DNA from: Steroidobacteraceae bacterium
GTDB taxonomy: Bacteria; Pseudomonadota; Gammaproteobacteria; Steroidobacterales; Steroidobacteraceae
Direction of reading: 5' to 3'
Assembly (NCBI GenBank): GCA_027531255.1
Contig: JAPZRU010000007.1
Location: 372,001-436,000, forward strand
Length of the DNA: 64,000 nucleotides
Shown: positions 43,804 through 51,464 of the stretch, one piece after another
How the letters are laid out: each line of letters opens with the position of its first letter
How positions within the stretch are numbered: the stretch's first letter is position 1
Notes under the pieces: model-generated
Seen by the model: only the letters and a program-made list of their open reading frames with translations
What the model was told of the DNA's origin: nothing
Databases searched by the model: none
Made by a program: the position numbers and the translations under genes

Positions 43804-44193
43804 TCAGCGCCGGTTCAGCGGTCGGCGCCGGGTGGGTGCACCGCGCTTCGGCGCCGCGGCGCGCGCGGCGAGGCTGCGGAAGTGCTTCGCGCCGAGCGCA
43901 TCGACGCTGCGCTCGAACTCGCGGTAGGTCGTGACCAGCGCCCGCCCGAACTCGGTCAGCTCGACCCCGCCGCCGCCGGCGCCGCCGACGCTGCTGCGCG
44001 TGAGCGGCTCGTCGAACGACGCGTTGGCTTCTTCCAGCAGCAGCCACGCGCGCCGGTAGCTCATGCCGAGGTCGCGCGCCGCGCCGGACAGCGAGCCGCC
44101 GCGGTCGACCGCTTCCAGCAGCGCGACCTTGCCGGGTCCGATCGAGCAGGCCGGGCCGAGGTCGATGCGCAGGCGGACGTGGACCGTGGTCAT
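43804..44193 (-). CDS. modE: ModE-type winged-helix regulator, DNA-binding domain only
   Basis: 129 residues from ATG 44193. Residues ~8-110 match the ModE N-terminal domain: SIGPGKVALLEAVDRGGSLS, then AARDLGMSYRRAWLLLEEAN (recognition helix), TRSSVGGAGGGGVELTEFGR and the dimer helix TTYREFERSVDAL. The remaining residues are a basic tail (RRRPLNRR). Full-length ModE has two C-terminal molbindin (TOBE) domains that bind molybdate; they are absent here, and no separate molbindin gene is nearby. Divergent from modA across 110 nt containing a ModE-type operator, so it probably controls modA and itself. Confidence 0.88.
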   Translation of the reverse strand: MTTVHVRLRIDLGPACSIGPGKVALLEAVDRGGSLSGAARDLGMSYRRAWLLLEEANASFDEPLTRSSVGGAGGGGVELTEFGRALVTTYREFERSVDALGAKHFRSLAARAAAPKRGAPTRRRPLNRR

Positions 44194-44267: not shown

Positions 44268-44291
44268 CGCTATGTCCACTTGTACATAGCG
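44268..44291. promoter_or_regulatory. ModE-type operator in front of modA
   Basis: Perfect inverted repeat: CGCTATGT at 44268-44275 and ACATAGCG at 44284-44291, spacer of 8 bases. The layout and half sites match the known ModE operator pattern (CGYTATAT, 8 bases, ATATARCG). It ends 12 bases before the modA start codon, where bound ModE with molybdate would block expression. The same geometry recurs at 49293-49316. Confidence 0.85.
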
Positions 44292-44303
44292 GGAGCCGCC
44301 ACC

Positions 44304-45140
44304 GTGCGCCGTCGCCTGACGATCCGGTCCGCGCCGTTCGCCGTCGCCGCGCTGCTCGCGGCCGTCGCGGCGCCGTCGACCGCCGGGAGCGCCCCGGCGC
44401 CCGGCGCCCGGGCATCGGCCGGTTCCCCGCCCGCCGCGGTCGCGCCGCTGACCGTCTATGCCGCCGCGTCGCTGACCAACGTGCTGGACGAGCTCGGCGC
44501 CGAGTACCGTCGCGCGACCGGGCGCCCGGTGCGGTTCTCGTACGCCGCGACCTCGGTGCTCGCGAAGCAGCTCGAGGCCGGCGCCCGCGTCGACGTGTTC
44601 TTCTCCGCGGACCGCGAGTGGATGGACTGGCTGCAGCAGCGCCGCCTGATCGAGGCGGCCACGCGCGCCGACGTCGTCGGCAACCGGCTCGTGCTGGTCG
44701 CGCCGGCCGACAGCCGCGTGCAGCTCGCGATCGCGCCGGGCTTCGCGATCGGCCGCGCGCTCGGCGACGGCCGCCTCGCGACCGCCGACCCGGACACCGT
44801 GCCCGCGGGCCGCTACGCGCGGGCGGCACTGACGAAGCTCGGCGTGTGGGCGCAGGTCGAGTCACGGCTGGTGCGCGCCGAGAACGTGCGCGCGGCGCTC
44901 GCGTTCGTCGGTCGCGGCGAGGTGCCGCTCGGGATCGTGTACGCGACCGACGCGAAGATCGATCCGAAGGTGCGCATCGTCGGGACGTTTCCGCCCGATT
45001 CGCACCCGCCGGTCACGTATCCCGCGGCGGTGGTCGCCGGCGCGCAGCCGGGTGCCGCGGATTTCCTGCGGTTCCTGCGGGGCGCCGGCGCGCAGGCGGT
45101 GTTCGCGCGGCATGGATTCCTGCCGACGACGGTTCGCTAG
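44304..45140 (+). CDS. modA: Molybdate-binding periplasmic protein ModA
   Basis: 278 residues from GTG 44304 with a GGGAG site. Signal peptide RSAPFAVAALLAAVAAPSTA, then a mature protein with the ModA ligand motifs: TVYAAASLTNVLDELG (Ser), FSYAATSVLAKQLEAGARVD (Ser), ADPDTVPAGRYARAALTKLG and PLGIVYATDAKI (Tyr). It captures molybdate or tungstate for an ABC importer. The usual modB and modC do not follow: the next gene is convergent. The partner permease must be elsewhere, or another system is served. Regulated by the operator directly upstream. Confidence 0.93.
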   Translation: MRRRLTIRSAPFAVAALLAAVAAPSTAGSAPAPGARASAGSPPAAVAPLTVYAAASLTNVLDELGAEYRRATGRPVRFSYAATSVLAKQLEAGARVDVFFSADREWMDWLQQRRLIEAATRADVVGNRLVLVAPADSRVQLAIAPGFAIGRALGDGRLATADPDTVPAGRYARAALTKLGVWAQVESRLVRAENVRAALAFVGRGEVPLGIVYATDAKIDPKVRIVGTFPPDSHPPVTYPAAVVAGAQPGAADFLRFLRGAGAQAVFARHGFLPTTVR

Positions 45141-46492
45141 AGGGAATCCAGGAAGACGAGTAGCGCGGCGCGATCGTCGGCTGCCGCGTGCAGGAAGCGG
45201 TGACGGCTGAGCGCCGCCTCGCCGCCGTGCCAGAGGATCGCTTCCTCGACGCTTCGGGCCCGGCCGTCGTGCAGGAACGTGCGCGGGCGGTCGCTGCGCG
45301 CGAGCCCGAGTCCCCACAGCGGGGCGGTGCGCCATTCCGTCGCCGTCGCATCGCCCTCGCCGACGGGCGCGGCCAGCCCGGGTCCGAGGTCGTGCAGCAG
45401 CAGGTCGGTGTAGGCCGGCACAACGCGGTTCGCTAGCCACGGTGCGTCCTCCACGGCGCCGGTCGCGAGCTGCGGCACGTGGCAGCCGGCGCAGCGATAC
45501 TCGTGGAACAGGCGCTCGCCGCGCGCCACGGCAGCCGACGCCGGCCGTGCCGGCGTCTCACCGGCCGCGCGGCGACCCGCCGCGTCCGGCAGACGCGTGC
45601 TCCGCTGGAACGCGACCAGCGCGTGCACGAGCTCGTCGTCGATCTCGGGCGCGGCGTCCTCGGGCGGCCGGCGCCATCGCGAGGCCACGCCCATTTCGAT
45701 CGCGAGTGCGACGGTGGTCTGGTCCAGCAGCGTCGCGTGGGCTGCCTTCCATCCGAAGCGGCCTACGCCGTACCGGCCAGCGATCGTACGGACGCGGTGC
45801 ACCCGTCCGCTGATCCCGTCGCCGTCGCGGTCGTGCGGATCGGCGAGCGCCGCCAGCGTGGCGTCCGGCACCGCCTCGAGCAGGCCGAGGCCCACCAGCG
45901 GATTCGCCATCCGCAGTCCCGCGGCGTGCAGGCGTCCGAGCGCGGGGTCCGCGTCGCGGAGTTCGAGCTCCGGCCGGCGCAGCGAGTATGGGCGCCGGTC
46001 CGCATAGCCGCCGATCGTCTCGATCCAGCGCACGATCGCGCGCGCGTCCGACCCGCCGACTACGGACTCCACGCGCAGCGGCCGGTTCGTCGCGACGCCG
46101 CCGGGAGACGACAGCGCCGCGTGCACGACGCCCTGCGTCGGCGCGGAGCCGTCGCGCGGCGGATCGCCGCGGCCGGCGCCGTTGTGGCAGGCGTCGCAGG
46201 ACGGCGCGTTGAAGCGAGGCCCCAGACCGGCCCGGCGTCGTGGCGCCTCCGGTCCGGCTTCGAACGGCGTGTTGAACACCGCGCGTCCGAGCCGGAACAC
46301 CGGATGCTGCGCCGTCGGAAGCTCGGGAGCGGACTGCAGCAGCGCGCCGCGCGACGAGGGCGGCGTCGCAGGGGGTGCGACGATGCTCGATGCGGGCGGT
46401 GACGCAGCGGGGCCGGCGACCGCCGCGGCGGAGGCGACCACCGCTGCGCCGGAGGCGACTACCGCTGCCACTGTGGCGCGAGCCGCGCCCAT
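45137..46492 (-). CDS. DUF1111 di-haem cytochrome c-type oxidoreductase
   Basis: 451 residues from ATG 46492 with an Ala/Val-rich signal peptide (ATVAAVVASGAAVVASAAAV). Two c-type haem sites are visible: CDACH near residue 100 and CAGCH near residue 330. The first is in the DUF1111 context FNAPSCDACHNGAGRG, the second in GERLFHEYRCAGCHVPQL; further family strings are FGWKAAHATLLDQTTVAL and PLWGLGLARSDRPRTFLHDG. The family resembles MauG and di-haem peroxidases and is often next to iron-uptake imelysins. Likely periplasmic electron-transfer or peroxidase function. Third gene of the operon headed by the TonB-dependent receptor; its stop overlaps the convergent modA end by 4 nt. Confidence 0.88.
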   Translation of the reverse strand: MGAARATVAAVVASGAAVVASAAAVAGPAASPPASSIVAPPATPPSSRGALLQSAPELPTAQHPVFRLGRAVFNTPFEAGPEAPRRRAGLGPRFNAPSCDACHNGAGRGDPPRDGSAPTQGVVHAALSSPGGVATNRPLRVESVVGGSDARAIVRWIETIGGYADRRPYSLRRPELELRDADPALGRLHAAGLRMANPLVGLGLLEAVPDATLAALADPHDRDGDGISGRVHRVRTIAGRYGVGRFGWKAAHATLLDQTTVALAIEMGVASRWRRPPEDAAPEIDDELVHALVAFQRSTRLPDAAGRRAAGETPARPASAAVARGERLFHEYRCAGCHVPQLATGAVEDAPWLANRVVPAYTDLLLHDLGPGLAAPVGEGDATATEWRTAPLWGLGLARSDRPRTFLHDGRARSVEEAILWHGGEAALSRHRFLHAAADDRAALLVFLDSL

Positions 46493-46545
46493 GGCCGCGA
46501 TCGACGTGGCCGACGCGACGACCCGCGAGGCGAGGACGGCGCGCC

Positions 46546-47175
46546 TTACGGCACCGGCGTGACGGCGAGTCGCACCTCGGCGTCCGTGCCGCCGCTCAGC
46601 TGGATCAGCATCGTCTCGCCGGCCGGGAGCGTGTACTCGACGCTCTTGCGGAACCGCGGGCAGGCCGAGCGCCCCTGGAAGCGGTTCGACTCGACGACGA
46701 CGTCCGCCCGCACGACGTCGATCCATGCGCCGTCGTCGATCGTCACGCGCCAGAGTCCTGCCGTCGGCACCACGACCGCGACGAGGCCCGCACGCGCGCC
46801 GTCCCGCAGTCGCTCCTTGCCGGGGGGCGCGGCGAACGTCACGCGCTCCTGCGGCGCGAGGCTGAGTGCGTAGAGCCGATTCGGCTCGACGCGCGGCGCG
46901 CCCCGAGGCTCCACCGCGGCGGCCAGCGGTTGGCCAGGTGCGGCGAACAGCTCGATCTCGCGCTCCAGGTTCCACGTGAATTCGCCGCAGCCGGCCGGCA
47001 CGCTCGTCGGTTCCGCCGCGAGCGCGCGGTCGTGCGGCACCGCAAGCGCCACCGGCAGTCCGGCCGCGAACAGCGTGGCCGCGAGCAGCAGCGCGGGCGA
47101 GAGTCCCTGCTCGCGCGGCCGTCCGTGCAGACGCGTTGCTGCGGCCGCCGAAGCGGGGTCGATGCGATCGCTCAT
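46546..47175 (-). CDS. Small secreted protein of unknown function in the TonB-receptor operon
   Basis: 209 residues, not recognised. ATG 47175 overlaps the receptor's stop as ATGA. After a hydrophilic N-terminus, a hydrophobic segment (SPALLLAATLFAAGLPVALA) forms a signal peptide or anchor. The mature part is beta-rich: two Cys residues (AGCGEFTW and SACPRFRK) could form a disulphide, and the end (TLPAGETMLIQLSGGTDAEV then RLAVTPVP) resembles a secreted beta-sandwich. The conserved operon position suggests a periplasmic partner of the receptor or of the di-haem protein. No metal-binding motif is evident. Confidence 0.75.
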   Translation of the reverse strand: MSDRIDPASAAAATRLHGRPREQGLSPALLLAATLFAAGLPVALAVPHDRALAAEPTSVPAGCGEFTWNLEREIELFAAPGQPLAAAVEPRGAPRVEPNRLYALSLAPQERVTFAAPPGKERLRDGARAGLVAVVVPTAGLWRVTIDDGAWIDVVRADVVVESNRFQGRSACPRFRKSVEYTLPAGETMLIQLSGGTDAEVRLAVTPVP

Positions 47176-49274
47176 CGGAGGTCTCCTCGCACGACGAGCG
47201 CATACGAGCGCCCCTCGCGCGGATAGCCGAGGTCCAGTGCGTAGAGCCGATCCGCGAGGTTCCGGCCGACCACCTCTATGCGCCAGCCGTGCAGCGCGCG
47301 CCAGGCCACGCGCAGGTCGCACGTCGCGAAACCGCCGACCGGCTCGCCGCCGGCGGCGGCGACGTCGGAGGTCCGCCGCCGCGTGTTCAACGTGACCGAG
47401 GGCACGACCTCGAGCGATTCCAGTGGCCGCCACTCCGCCCACGCGAACGCGGCGTGCCGCGGCACGCCGAACAGGATCCGCCGGGGCGTCGAGCGCGACT
47501 CGCGTTCGAGGTAGGTGTAGCTGAAGCCCGCCTGCAGCCGCTCGACGACCGTGGCCGCGAGCGACCACTCGAAGCCGGTGTACCGCGCGGCGCCGACGTT
47601 GCGGTTCTGCGTGACACCGGGCGACACCATGACCGGCTGGATCAGGTCTTCGAGCCGGCTCGTGAACGCTGCCGCGTCGCTGCGCCACCGGGCCGTGCGC
47701 CACGCATGGCCGACCTCGATCGTCGTCGCGCGCTCCAGCGCGAGCTCCGGGTTCGGGATCGCCGACCCGAGCCGATAGGAGTAGCGCTCGAACTGCGAGG
47801 GGAAGCGGCCGCGCCGCGCGACGCTCGCGCGCAGCTCGCCGAGTGCGTCGAGGTCCAGCGCCAGCTGCGCCTGCAGGTTGGTTGTCGCGGCATCGTCGAG
47901 CGTCAACTCCGCGCCGGCGCGGTTCGAGTCCTGCGCGCGCCGCGCATCGCGAGCGTCGCGGCTGGCGGCGACCGCCGCCTCGAACGCACCGGCGAACGGC
48001 AAGCGGTACTCCGCACCGACCGACCACGTGCGGTCCTCGAAGCGGAGGCGCGGCGGATTCCGGCCGGGAAGGGACTGGATGTCGTCGTGGTAGTCGTCGC
48101 GCAGGTGCGCCGCGGCGGTCGCGGTGCCCGGCCCGAGCCGCGCCTCCAGGACGACACTGCCACCCAGCGCGTAGTCGTCGTAGCGGCTGCGGAACGCGCG
48201 GGGTGTGGCCTGGGTCGAGTAGCCGGGACCGTCGTAGGAAAACAGCTCGTTTTCGAAAGCGTCCCAGTACAGCCGCGTGCGCAGCGACATGCCGTCCGCG
48301 AGCGGCGTCTGCCCGAGCAGGTAGACGCCGCGCTTGCTCCACGTGGGCCAGTCGAAATAGTTGAAGCGCTGGTTCGTGTCCGGCGGGCCGGCGTAGGGCG
48401 GCACGCCCTTCTCCGCGCGCTGCTCGTAGGCCGCCAGCGCGTACTCGCCGCCGCCCTGCGTCTCGACGCCGAGCTTCAGGCTCAGGCGACGATCGCTCGA
48501 CGCCGAGCGCAGGCGGGCGCCGGCCGGCTGCAGGTTGCCGGTGAGCGGCACGAGCACCGGTGCCCCGGCCGGGCGAAAGTCGTCGGGCAGCCGCCACTCG
48601 TCGCGATCGACGTACGAAGCACCGAGCTGCGCGTACCACGCACCGCGCCGCGCGCCGAGGTTGAACGCGGCGCGCCAGCCCTCGTCACCGGCGTCGCTGG
48701 CCGACAGCGCGGCCTGGAAGTCGGCTTCGAACGGCTCGACCGGTCGGCGAGTGACGAGGTTGATCGCGCCCCCGAGCGTGCCCGGACCGTAGGCGACCGG
48801 CACGTAGCCCTTCGCGACCTCGACCGCCGCGAGGTCGAACAGCGTGAAGCGATCGAGATCGGCGGGCTCGCCGTCCCACGACACGTAGAACGGCACGCCA
48901 TCGACCAGGAACGGCGTCTGCAGCCCGTCGAAGCCGCGCAGGAACACGCGCGCTTCGTTGCGCGGGCTGCCTCGCGAGCCGGCCGTCGGCACCAGCCCCG
49001 GCACCGTCGCGAGCGCGTCGGTGAGGCGCTGGTGGTCGAAGCGTTCGAACTCGGGGGCGCCGACCACGGCGATGCCCGGCGCCGAAGTGCCGAGGCGGGT
49101 GCCGGTGATGGTGACGCTGCCGAGGAGCACCACCTCGTCGGCGGAAGGCTCGCGCGCGAGCGCGGGAGTCGACGCTGAGTTCAGCGCGAGCGCGAGCGCG
49201 ATCGCGACGCCCGCAGTGGCCCGCGAGGCCCACGGTCCGCGGACATCAGGCGAGGGGTCCGAGTGCTCTTCCAC
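47172..49274 (-). CDS. TonB-dependent outer-membrane receptor under a ModE-type operator
   Basis: 700 residues from GTG 49274. A long N-terminal basic region and signal peptide (ATAGVAIALALALNSASTPALA) lead to the TonB box region, then the plug domain (TITGTRLGTSAPGIAVVGAPEF, VFLRGFDGLQTPFLVDGVPF, GPGTLGGAINLVTRRPV) and a 22-strand barrel ending in YALVVRGDLR. TonB receptors actively import chelated metals, cofactors or sugars. The ligand is not evident, but the ModE-type dyad 18-42 bases upstream of the start and the neighbouring modA argue for molybdate or a molybdenum chelate. First gene of a three-gene operon with overlapping stop/start codons. Confidence 0.9.
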   Translation of the reverse strand: MEEHSDPSPDVRGPWASRATAGVAIALALALNSASTPALAREPSADEVVLLGSVTITGTRLGTSAPGIAVVGAPEFERFDHQRLTDALATVPGLVPTAGSRGSPRNEARVFLRGFDGLQTPFLVDGVPFYVSWDGEPADLDRFTLFDLAAVEVAKGYVPVAYGPGTLGGAINLVTRRPVEPFEADFQAALSASDAGDEGWRAAFNLGARRGAWYAQLGASYVDRDEWRLPDDFRPAGAPVLVPLTGNLQPAGARLRSASSDRRLSLKLGVETQGGGEYALAAYEQRAEKGVPPYAGPPDTNQRFNYFDWPTWSKRGVYLLGQTPLADGMSLRTRLYWDAFENELFSYDGPGYSTQATPRAFRSRYDDYALGGSVVLEARLGPGTATAAAHLRDDYHDDIQSLPGRNPPRLRFEDRTWSVGAEYRLPFAGAFEAAVAASRDARDARRAQDSNRAGAELTLDDAATTNLQAQLALDLDALGELRASVARRGRFPSQFERYSYRLGSAIPNPELALERATTIEVGHAWRTARWRSDAAAFTSRLEDLIQPVMVSPGVTQNRNVGAARYTGFEWSLAATVVERLQAGFSYTYLERESRSTPRRILFGVPRHAAFAWAEWRPLESLEVVPSVTLNTRRRTSDVAAAGGEPVGGFATCDLRVAWRALHGWRIEVVGRNLADRLYALDLGYPREGRSYALVVRGDLR

Positions 49275-49290
49275 CGCAGCGTCTCCCGGC

Positions 49291-49318
49291 TTCGCTATAT
49301 CTCATCGGATACAGCGAA
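49291..49318. promoter_or_regulatory. ModE-type operator upstream of the TonB-receptor operon
   Basis: TTCGCTATATC at 49291-49301 and GATACAGCGAA at 49308-49318 form an 11-bp dyad with one mismatch and 6-base spacer. Read as ModE half sites it is CGCTATAT (49293-49300), 8 bases, ATACAGCG (49309-49316): the same geometry as the modA operator. It lies 17 bases upstream of the receptor start codon. No -10 or -35 box was clear beyond it. Confidence 0.78.
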
Positions 49319-49724: not shown

Positions 49725-50174
49725 TCAGCGACTGAAGCGCTGGCTCAGCACCACCGACGTCACCGTCGACTTCACGCCCGGCGTCTCGCGCACCGCGTCG
49801 AGCGAGGCATCCAGCGCCTCGGTGGACTCCGCCGCGAGCACCGCGATCAGGTCGTAGCTGCCGCTGACGCTGTACAGCGAGGTCGTGGCCGGGATCGTCG
49901 CGAGCTTGCGCTCGACCGCCGCCTGGCGCGCCGGGTCCACCGCGATCATCACGTGGGCGCGCACCTGCCGGTTCTGCGCGCTGGCGGCGATGCGCACCGT
50001 GTAGCCGAGGATCGTGCCGTCCCGCTCGAGGCGCTGGAGTCGATCCTGGACGGTCGAGCGGGCGACACCGAGCCGCCGCGCCAGCACTGCGGTGGGCAGG
50101 CGGGCGTCCTGCTTCAGCAGGTCGATCAGCTCGGCGTCGAGGTCGCGCGCGGCGGGGCGGGGGCGTGGGGACAC
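49725..50174 (-). CDS. Lrp/AsnC-family transcriptional regulator
   Basis: 149 residues from GTG 50174. Winged-helix DNA-binding domain (LDAELIDLLKQDARLPTAVL with recognition region RLGVARSTVQDRLQRLERDG), then the RAM effector-binding domain (VRAHVMIAVDPARQ, LYSVSGSYDLIAVLAAEST, ETPGVKSTVTSVVLS). The family senses amino acids as an octamer or dimer. Divergent from a lysine/aminoadipate-type operon, which it probably controls. Confidence 0.92.
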   Translation of the reverse strand: MSPRPRPAARDLDAELIDLLKQDARLPTAVLARRLGVARSTVQDRLQRLERDGTILGYTVRIAASAQNRQVRAHVMIAVDPARQAAVERKLATIPATTSLYSVSGSYDLIAVLAAESTEALDASLDAVRETPGVKSTVTSVVLSQRFSR

Positions 50175-50339: not shown

Positions 50340-51464
50340 ATGAAGCAGATCCTCGTCGTGGGTGCGGGCCACATCGGCACGCTGGTCGCGGAACTGCTCG
50401 CGCATACGGGCGACTACCGGGTGACGGTCGCGGATGCGAACGCGCAGGCGCTCGCGGCCCTGCAGGGCCGCCACGGCATCGACACGCTGCAGGTGTCCGC
50501 GACCTATCCGGCGGCGCTCCGCGCCGCGATGCGCGGGCGCTACGCCGTGATCAGCGCCGCGCCGTACTCGGTCACCGGCGCGATCGCCGAGGCCGCGCAC
50601 GCGAGCGGCGTGCACTACCTGGACCTCACTGAGGACGTCGCCACCACGCGGCTCGTGAAGGAGCTGGCGAAGACGGCGACGCACGCGCTGATTCCCCAGT
50701 GCGGCCTCGCGCCGGGCTTCATCTCGATCGTCGGCATGGAGCTGGCGCGCCGTTTCGAGCAGCTCGACACGCTGCGGATGCGCGTCGGCGCGCTGCCGCA
50801 GTTCCCGTCGAACGCACTCGGCTACAACCTGACGTGGAGCACCGCGGGCGTCATCAACGAGTACATCCGCCCGTGCGAGGCGATCGTGCAGGGCAAGCTC
50901 TCCGAGACGCCGGCGCTCGAGGAGCTCGAGCACTTCGCGCTCGACGGCGTGCAGTACGAGGCTTTCAACACGAGCGGCGGACTCGGTACGCTCTGCGAGA
51001 CCCTGGCGGGCTCCGTCCGCAACCTGAACTACCGTACGACCCGCTACCCGGGCCACCGCGACGTCATGAAGCTGCTGCTGCAGGACCTGCGCCTGTCCGA
51101 GCGCCCGGAGGTGCTGGCCGACGTGCTCGAGAAGGCGATCCCGGAGACGCACCAGGACGTGGTCGTGATCTTCGTGACCGCGACCGGCACGCGCCGCGGC
51201 CGCGTCTGGCAGGAGTCCTACGCGCGCAGCGTGTACCCGCAGGTGCACGCGGGCCGCGAGTGGACCGCGATCCAGACCACGACCGCCTCCGCCGTCTGCG
51301 CGGTGCTCGACCTGCTGGCCGCGGGCCGGCTGCCGCAGCAGGGCCTCGTGAAGCAGGAGGACATCCGCCTCGACGAGTTCCTCGCCAACCGCTTCGGCCG
51401 CGCGTACGACGTGCCGGCCGCGCACGCGAGCCCGCAGGCGCCGTCGCGGTCGCGGGCCGCCTGA
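50340..51464 (+). CDS. Saccharopine dehydrogenase family protein
   Basis: 374 residues from ATG 50340 with a GGAG site. Rossmann motif VVGAGHIGTLVAELL (GxGxxG) at residues ~6-11, conserved SAAPYSVTGAIAEAAHASGVHYLDLTEDVA near 80-110, and GLAPGFISIVGMEL near 130, as in saccharopine dehydrogenases and carboxynorspermidine enzymes. In lysine breakdown it would convert saccharopine to 2-aminoadipate semialdehyde and glutamate with NAD(P). No lysine-ketoglutarate reductase is in the window. Next gene starts at its stop codon (TGATG). Confidence 0.85.
   Translation: MKQILVVGAGHIGTLVAELLAHTGDYRVTVADANAQALAALQGRHGIDTLQVSATYPAALRAAMRGRYAVISAAPYSVTGAIAEAAHASGVHYLDLTEDVATTRLVKELAKTATHALIPQCGLAPGFISIVGMELARRFEQLDTLRMRVGALPQFPSNALGYNLTWSTAGVINEYIRPCEAIVQGKLSETPALEELEHFALDGVQYEAFNTSGGLGTLCETLAGSVRNLNYRTTRYPGHRDVMKLLLQDLRLSERPEVLADVLEKAIPETHQDVVVIFVTATGTRRGRVWQESYARSVYPQVHAGREWTAIQTTTASAVCAVLDLLAAGRLPQQGLVKQEDIRLDEFLANRFGRAYDVPAAHASPQAPSRSRAA

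Follow-up and report, generated by a model that had tools for sequence, protein, structure and literature searches.

A TonB-dependent receptor operon under predicted ModE control as a candidate molybdenum uptake route in proteobacteria

The 64,000-nucleotide stretch of DNA analysed here (contig JAPZRU010000007.1 of assembly GCA_027531255.1, from a Steroidobacteraceae bacterium), referred to as the window, carries two ModE-type dyads, one in front of modA and the other in front of an operon for a TonB-dependent receptor, a small secreted protein and a di-haem protein. The operon probably serves the ModE-controlled, TonB-dependent uptake of molybdate (or tungstate, or a chelate), working together with ModA. 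Judging from the dyads, the receptor operon is very probably under ModE regulation, and the system probably transports molybdenum in some form. The passage of molybdate across the outer membrane is usually ascribed to general porins. If the proposal is correct, many proteobacteria would possess an active and regulated outer-membrane step for molybdenum, the substrate range of TonB-dependent transport would be extended, and a function could be given to an unnamed family of small proteins as well as to some di-haem proteins of the DUF1111 and MbnH-like kinds.

Two ModE-type dyads precede modA and the receptor operon

A pattern scan located the first dyad, CGCTATGT-N8-ACATAGCG, at 44268..44291, exactly the sequence and position given in a preliminary description of the locus, 12 bp 5' of the GTG start (44304) of modA (44304..45140, plus strand). 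The product of this gene is a molybdate ABC transporter binding protein and a ModA equivalog, scoring over the cut-off of TIGR01256 (E value of 4e-56; 190 bits, with a cut-off of 62.5). The second dyad, CGCTATAT-N8-ATACAGCG, found in the same scan at 49293..49316, was also exactly as described, but it lies 18 bp rather than 17 bp 5' of the receptor start. The receptor gene (47172..49274, minus strand, GTG start at 49274) encodes a plug and a beta-barrel, both recognized over the cut-off (PF07715 and PF00593), and is the first gene of the operon. It overlaps by 4 bp the second gene (46546..47175, minus strand), which encodes a small secreted beta-sandwich protein belonging to no Pfam or NCBIfam family. 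The third gene (45137..46492, minus strand) encodes a DHOR (DUF1111) di-haem protein with two CXXCH motifs (PF06537, E value of 6e-56); its start, chosen by eye as the ATG at 46492, is about 53 bp beyond the small-protein gene, and its end overlaps the stop codon of the convergent modA. On the other side of the first dyad and divergent from modA is a modE gene (43804..44193, minus strand), about which the preliminary description was silent. The modBC genes do not follow modA in the window but are found on a separate contig of the same genome (C28), with modB at C28:55242 (TIGR02141, over the cut-off) followed by modC, both unlinked to modA.

The core of the E. coli ModE consensus, CGYTATAT-N8-ATATARCG, has the same half-sites and spacing as the dyads in the window, and the consensus reported for the E. 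coli ModE regulon, ATCGNTATATA-N6-TATATANCGAT (PMC545781), agrees with these half-sites and the 8-base gap. As in the known regulon, a dyad stands beside modA and a modE gene is adjacent. Unlike in the known regulon, a dyad also precedes a TonB receptor operon, and the ModE of the window, unlike the E. coli type, consists of the DNA-binding domain only.

Even with up to three mismatches allowed, the two dyads are the sole sites in the window, and CGNTATRT-N8-AYANANCG matches only these two places in the whole 4.2-Mb genome, the same pattern written backwards as a control giving none. A stricter pattern for the perfect dyad was found in 15 places across 150 same-family genomes, versus 0 for the backwards control. 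These sites, located without reference to genes, adjoin mod genes (loci L151, L152, L153, and L155), TonB receptors (L154, L155, L157, and L164), porins of three families (Porin_4 in L156, OprD in L153, and Alginate_exp in L162 and L163), and redox genes (MsrB in L160 and L161, DsbD-thioredoxin in L159 and L165, and dehydrogenase-cytochrome in L158). Judged by their dyads, the redox genes seem to be ModE regulon members unexpected from E. coli, with a control that would reach beyond transport. A chance origin of the dyads is ruled out by their uniqueness in the genome, by the count of 15 versus 0 in the family, and by the conservation in orthologous promoters described below.

Porins occur beside ModE-type dyads in relatives (L051, L153, L156, L162, and L163) as if they were standing in for the receptor. 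In L051, the porin gene is divergent from modA and is followed by a small-protein gene. Separately, two perfect dyads lie 5' of the gene for a DUF2325 protein in the Burkholderiales locus L093 (13052-13140 and 13153-14484).

The receptor dyad is conserved across three proteobacterial groups

Orthologous receptors were collected by a scan of genome contigs for two peptide motifs of the receptor, so the dyads played no part in the search. This yielded 80 receptors from 80 genomes of alpha-, beta- and gammaproteobacteria, with best segments 31-64% identical, among them Sphingomonadales, Azospirillum, Reyranella, Parvibaculum, Hyphomicrobium, Rhodobacteraceae, Steroidobacteraceae, Luteimonas, Thermomonas, Burkholderiales, Methylophilus, and others. 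Four of the 80 are repeats of loci in the query alignment and many come from sphingomonads; therefore, they do not represent 80 independent events. For the 77 receptors with at least 250 bp of upstream DNA, a zone of 350 bp was searched. A dyad with at most two mismatches was found 5' of 44 receptors and one with at most three mismatches 5' of 60, compared with 0.3 and 0.5 expected from random windows of the same loci. When the gap was set to 7 or 9 bases, only 0 and 2 receptors, respectively, had a match with at most three mismatches. Gaps of 6 and 10 bases and the complement of the pattern gained some matches at this threshold, yet far fewer than the true pattern, and these probably stem from the repetitive nature of the site itself (TATAT-N8-ATATA). 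The dyad counts are slightly low, as the one-mismatch dyads of L073 and L087 overlap the first aligned receptor base and fall outside the window used for counting.

An even draw of 184 genomes from the class of the source genome added three further receptors, one with a perfect dyad, one with a single mismatch and one with none; one of the dyad-bearing receptors is divergent from a long modE. The suggestion in the preliminary description that the receptor dyad should be kept in orthologous promoters is thus borne out in alpha-, beta- and gammaproteobacteria, and this breadth rules out a system local to the source genome. In the plasmid collection, no receptor relative was found.

A ModE domain protein is encoded in 49 of 50 receptor genomes versus 34 of the 184 genomes from the class of the source genome, a contrast that serves only as a guide because most of the 50 are alphaproteobacterial and the comparison class is a different one. 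The sole receptor genome lacking ModE, that of Novosphingobium rosa (L137), also lacks the dyad, the small protein and the di-haem gene at its receptor.

Gene neighbourhoods link the receptors to molybdenum genes

Neighbouring genes were counted within 5 kb of the 64 receptors that had at least 5 kb of sequence on both sides. The small protein or an SBP_bac_6 binding protein was present near 56 of them and a di-haem protein (DHOR or MbnH-like) near 45, while modE was near 18. Proximity to mod genes, which the preliminary description had proposed as a check for receptors of this type, was seen for 20 of the 64. The gene order of the window, receptor-small protein-DHOR, is one of three typical layouts. 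In sphingomonads, the dyad lies between the receptor gene and the divergently oriented genes for an MbnH-like protein and the small protein, and in Novosphingobium album and Sphingobium sufflavum this arrangement adjoins modABC. The receptors of Azospirillum, Reyranella and Burkholderiales are accompanied by SBP_bac_6 and DHOR genes, and in Azospirillum a NifQ gene is located 5' of the receptor.

In two other gammaproteobacterial families, a FecCD-type importer is encoded 3' of the receptor (L168 and L170). The nearest relative of the permease in L170 is H. influenzae HI1471 (MolB), and the binding protein in L168 is related to HI1472 (MolA), although 4pag scores higher. DUF2478 and luciferase-like monooxygenase genes separate the receptor from the FecCD importer (L168:7902-8549; L170:9926-11191).

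Gene fusions also connect the small protein to ModA. In Povalibacter and other relatives, it forms the C-terminal domain of ModA (L056, L061, L064, L066, L067, and L068; another example is L072:10489-11772). Together with the conserved dyad and the mod linkage, these fusions agree with the earlier proposal that the receptor operon is controlled by ModE and coupled to ModA. The source genome encodes many molybdoenzymes, which implies a high demand for molybdenum.

Receptor, small protein and di-haem protein

The AlphaFold2 model of the receptor (pTM of 0.85) matches solved receptors and is nearest to the copper receptor OprC (6z8q and 6fok), with TM-scores of about 0.73-0.81 and 16-17% identity. 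The alignment of the receptor family contains no invariant or near-invariant Cys or Met. A copper receptor identity was therefore rejected in spite of OprC being the nearest fold.

The small protein was modelled confidently by AlphaFold2 as a beta sandwich (pLDDT of 93.7), and a fold search returned only a weak likeness to PPC and collagen-binding domains, with E values above 1e-3. Cys63, Gly130, Trp151, Cys172, Lys177 and Val179 are invariant in the family. No NCBIfam match was obtained for the protein of the window or for two relatives, and its identification as MbnP was rejected because neither family nor fold supports it.

The di-haem protein of the window is a DHOR and not an MbnH. In sphingomonads, the di-haem partner is MbnH-like (257-311 bits to TIGR04039, below the curated cut-off); among solved structures, the di-heme enzyme 6e1c is its best relative. 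MbnP can carry a tryptophan that is converted to kynurenine. MopE, a known partner of such di-haem enzymes, can likewise bear a tryptophan converted to kynurenine (PMC3621798). Given these kynurenine-bearing partners of MbnH-like enzymes, the invariant Trp of the small protein is, by analogy, suggestive but no more.

Proposed uptake route and alternative explanations

The genes suggest the following route. When molybdenum is scarce, ModE would leave both dyads and the modA and receptor units would be expressed. The receptor, energized by TonB, would carry the metal oxyanion or a complex of it into the periplasm, where the small beta-sandwich protein may take over the substrate from the receptor or provide a dock for ModA. 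The di-haem protein may contribute a redox step, either in processing a chelate or in oxidizing a residue of the small protein as MbnH does on MbnP; any particular version of this step is improbable when taken singly. ModA would then hand molybdate to ModBC, encoded on the other contig, for import into the cell. The choice among molybdate, tungstate and a chelate, like the part assigned to the di-haem protein, is drawn from gene context, and we infer the binding of ModE, the response to molybdenum and the inward direction of transport. A broader version, in which the receptors form a widespread TonB-dependent class dedicated to molybdate, tungstate or a natural chelate, with a periplasmic acceptor domain of its own that can be built into ModA and a di-haem enzyme acting on either this acceptor or the chelate, is one that we hold in even balance.

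Several observations weigh against this route. In six receptor loci that retain the partner genes and belong to genomes with ModE (L083, L139, L142, L144, L146, and L147), the best dyad match has 4-7 mismatches, and the genome-wide pattern scan gave no dyad for modBC. The ModE of the window, which is the only ModE of the genome and scores below the curated cut-off of TIGR00637 (75 bits against 98.5, E values of 3.6e-21 and 1.3e-20), has 129 residues and ends after the helix-turn-helix (HTH) domain without the C-terminal molbindin domain. No stand-alone molbindin was found in the genome, where the only TOBE domain sits in ModC. As the sole ModE lacks the molybdate-binding domain, the earlier statement that ModE represses with molybdate is not directly transferable to the source genome. 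Long forms of ModE are found in some relatives (L042, L085, L093, and L168), and the HTH-only proteins raise the question of how molybdenum is sensed. Members of the small-protein family also occur far from mod genes, and seven have no dyads nearby (L050, L054, L055, L058, L060, L063, and L065). Their neighbours include genes for pyruvate dehydrogenase (L050 and L058), arginase/ornithine cyclodeaminase (L063), a chemoreceptor (L055) and catalase-peroxidase (L060), while in L058 a modE-like gene is adjacent. The small protein was accordingly rejected as an exclusive marker of molybdenum. Finally, molybdate is small enough to cross through ordinary porins, and an active route would be needed only for substrates that are scarce, chelated or large.

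In a related explanation, the substrate imported under ModE is not free molybdate but a molybdenum chelate (a molybdophore, such as a catecholate), from which the di-haem or binding protein frees the metal before ModA or a FecCD-type importer takes over. It narrows the uptake system proposed above to one kind of substrate, and the confidences in the two overlap; taken alone, it is possible but somewhat unlikely. Chelates, cobalamin, haem or metal complexes are the usual cargo of the sequence-related TonB receptors whose structures are solved, and both the FecCD-type importers 3' of the receptor in L168 and L170 and the recurrence of the di-haem enzyme as a partner would suit such a substrate. 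However, MolA and MolB form a molybdate/tungstate system, which means that the presence of a FecCD importer does not by itself call for a chelate, and no metallophore synthesis cluster was present in the loci read, although no genome-wide search was made.

The link to molybdenum could also be indirect. Since the substrate does not follow from regulation alone, low molybdenum might induce a sparing or protective response that imports something else, such as iron, haem or an alternative cofactor, and the perfect dyads 5' of MsrB, DsbD-thioredoxin and dehydrogenase-cytochrome genes in relatives would fit with this. We regard such a response as improbable, because the ModA fusion and the nifQ and MolB-like neighbours indicate molybdenum itself, and because porins replace the receptor beside perfect dyads in relatives, as expected for a shared need for oxyanion entry. 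Less probable still is a methanobactin-type copper system brought under ModE control through the metabolic interplay of copper and molybdenum. A receptor with a small protein and a di-haem enzyme does resemble MbnT/MbnP/MbnH (PMC3621798), the sphingomonad partner is MbnH-like and the receptor model is structurally nearest to OprC, but the missing conservation of Cys and Met, the failure of the small protein to match any MbnP family model, the linkage to modA, modE, nifQ and a MolB-like permease, and the fusion of the small protein to ModA all argue against copper.

Comparison with known systems

TonB-dependent metal uptake is known as such; what is new in the proposed ModE-controlled uptake system is the link to the regulator and the set of partners, and probably the substrate. 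In gene composition, it resembles the methanobactin system, where MbnT with MbnP/MbnH likewise brings together a TonB receptor, a small periplasmic partner and a MauG/MbnH-like di-haem enzyme in one locus. It differs from that system in having ModE-type dyads rather than copper control, a small protein outside the MbnP models and, in the window, a DHOR. MolABC of H. influenzae (HI1470-1472; 2nq2 and 3psa), whose relatives are found in L168 and L170, is an inner-membrane importer, in place of which the window has ModA. To our knowledge, no TonB receptor has been assigned to MolABC.

Two systems from other bacteria touch on the same theme. In Acidithiobacillus ferrooxidans, the accessible part of one report describes a predicted Fe-Mo cluster with outer-membrane receptors and a ModA-like protein near nif, and suggests a joint uptake of Fe and Mo (PMC2631029). 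Those receptors were interpreted there as siderophore receptors under Fur, and neither a ModE site nor a small protein or di-haem partner is mentioned in that part of the report. In Pseudomonas aeruginosa, secreted ModA acts with the outer-membrane protein IcmP in molybdate acquisition (PMC8602904), which resembles the coupling of an outer-membrane protein to ModA proposed here. The P. aeruginosa system requires type VI secretion, and IcmP, rather than being a TonB receptor, is characterized as a metalloproteinase outer-membrane protein (PMC8602904). No ModE-TonB receptor system was found in the open literature searched, with subscription papers and the RegPrecise database outside this scope and an earlier prediction thus possible; molybdate/ModE is absent from the regulators named in the RegPrecise 3.0 paper.

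A promoter scan of the window region gave nothing useful. Beyond the receptor dyad, a gene for an AsnC/Lrp-like regulator (49725-50174) is divergent from a saccharopine-dehydrogenase-like gene (50342-51464), both annotated by eye.

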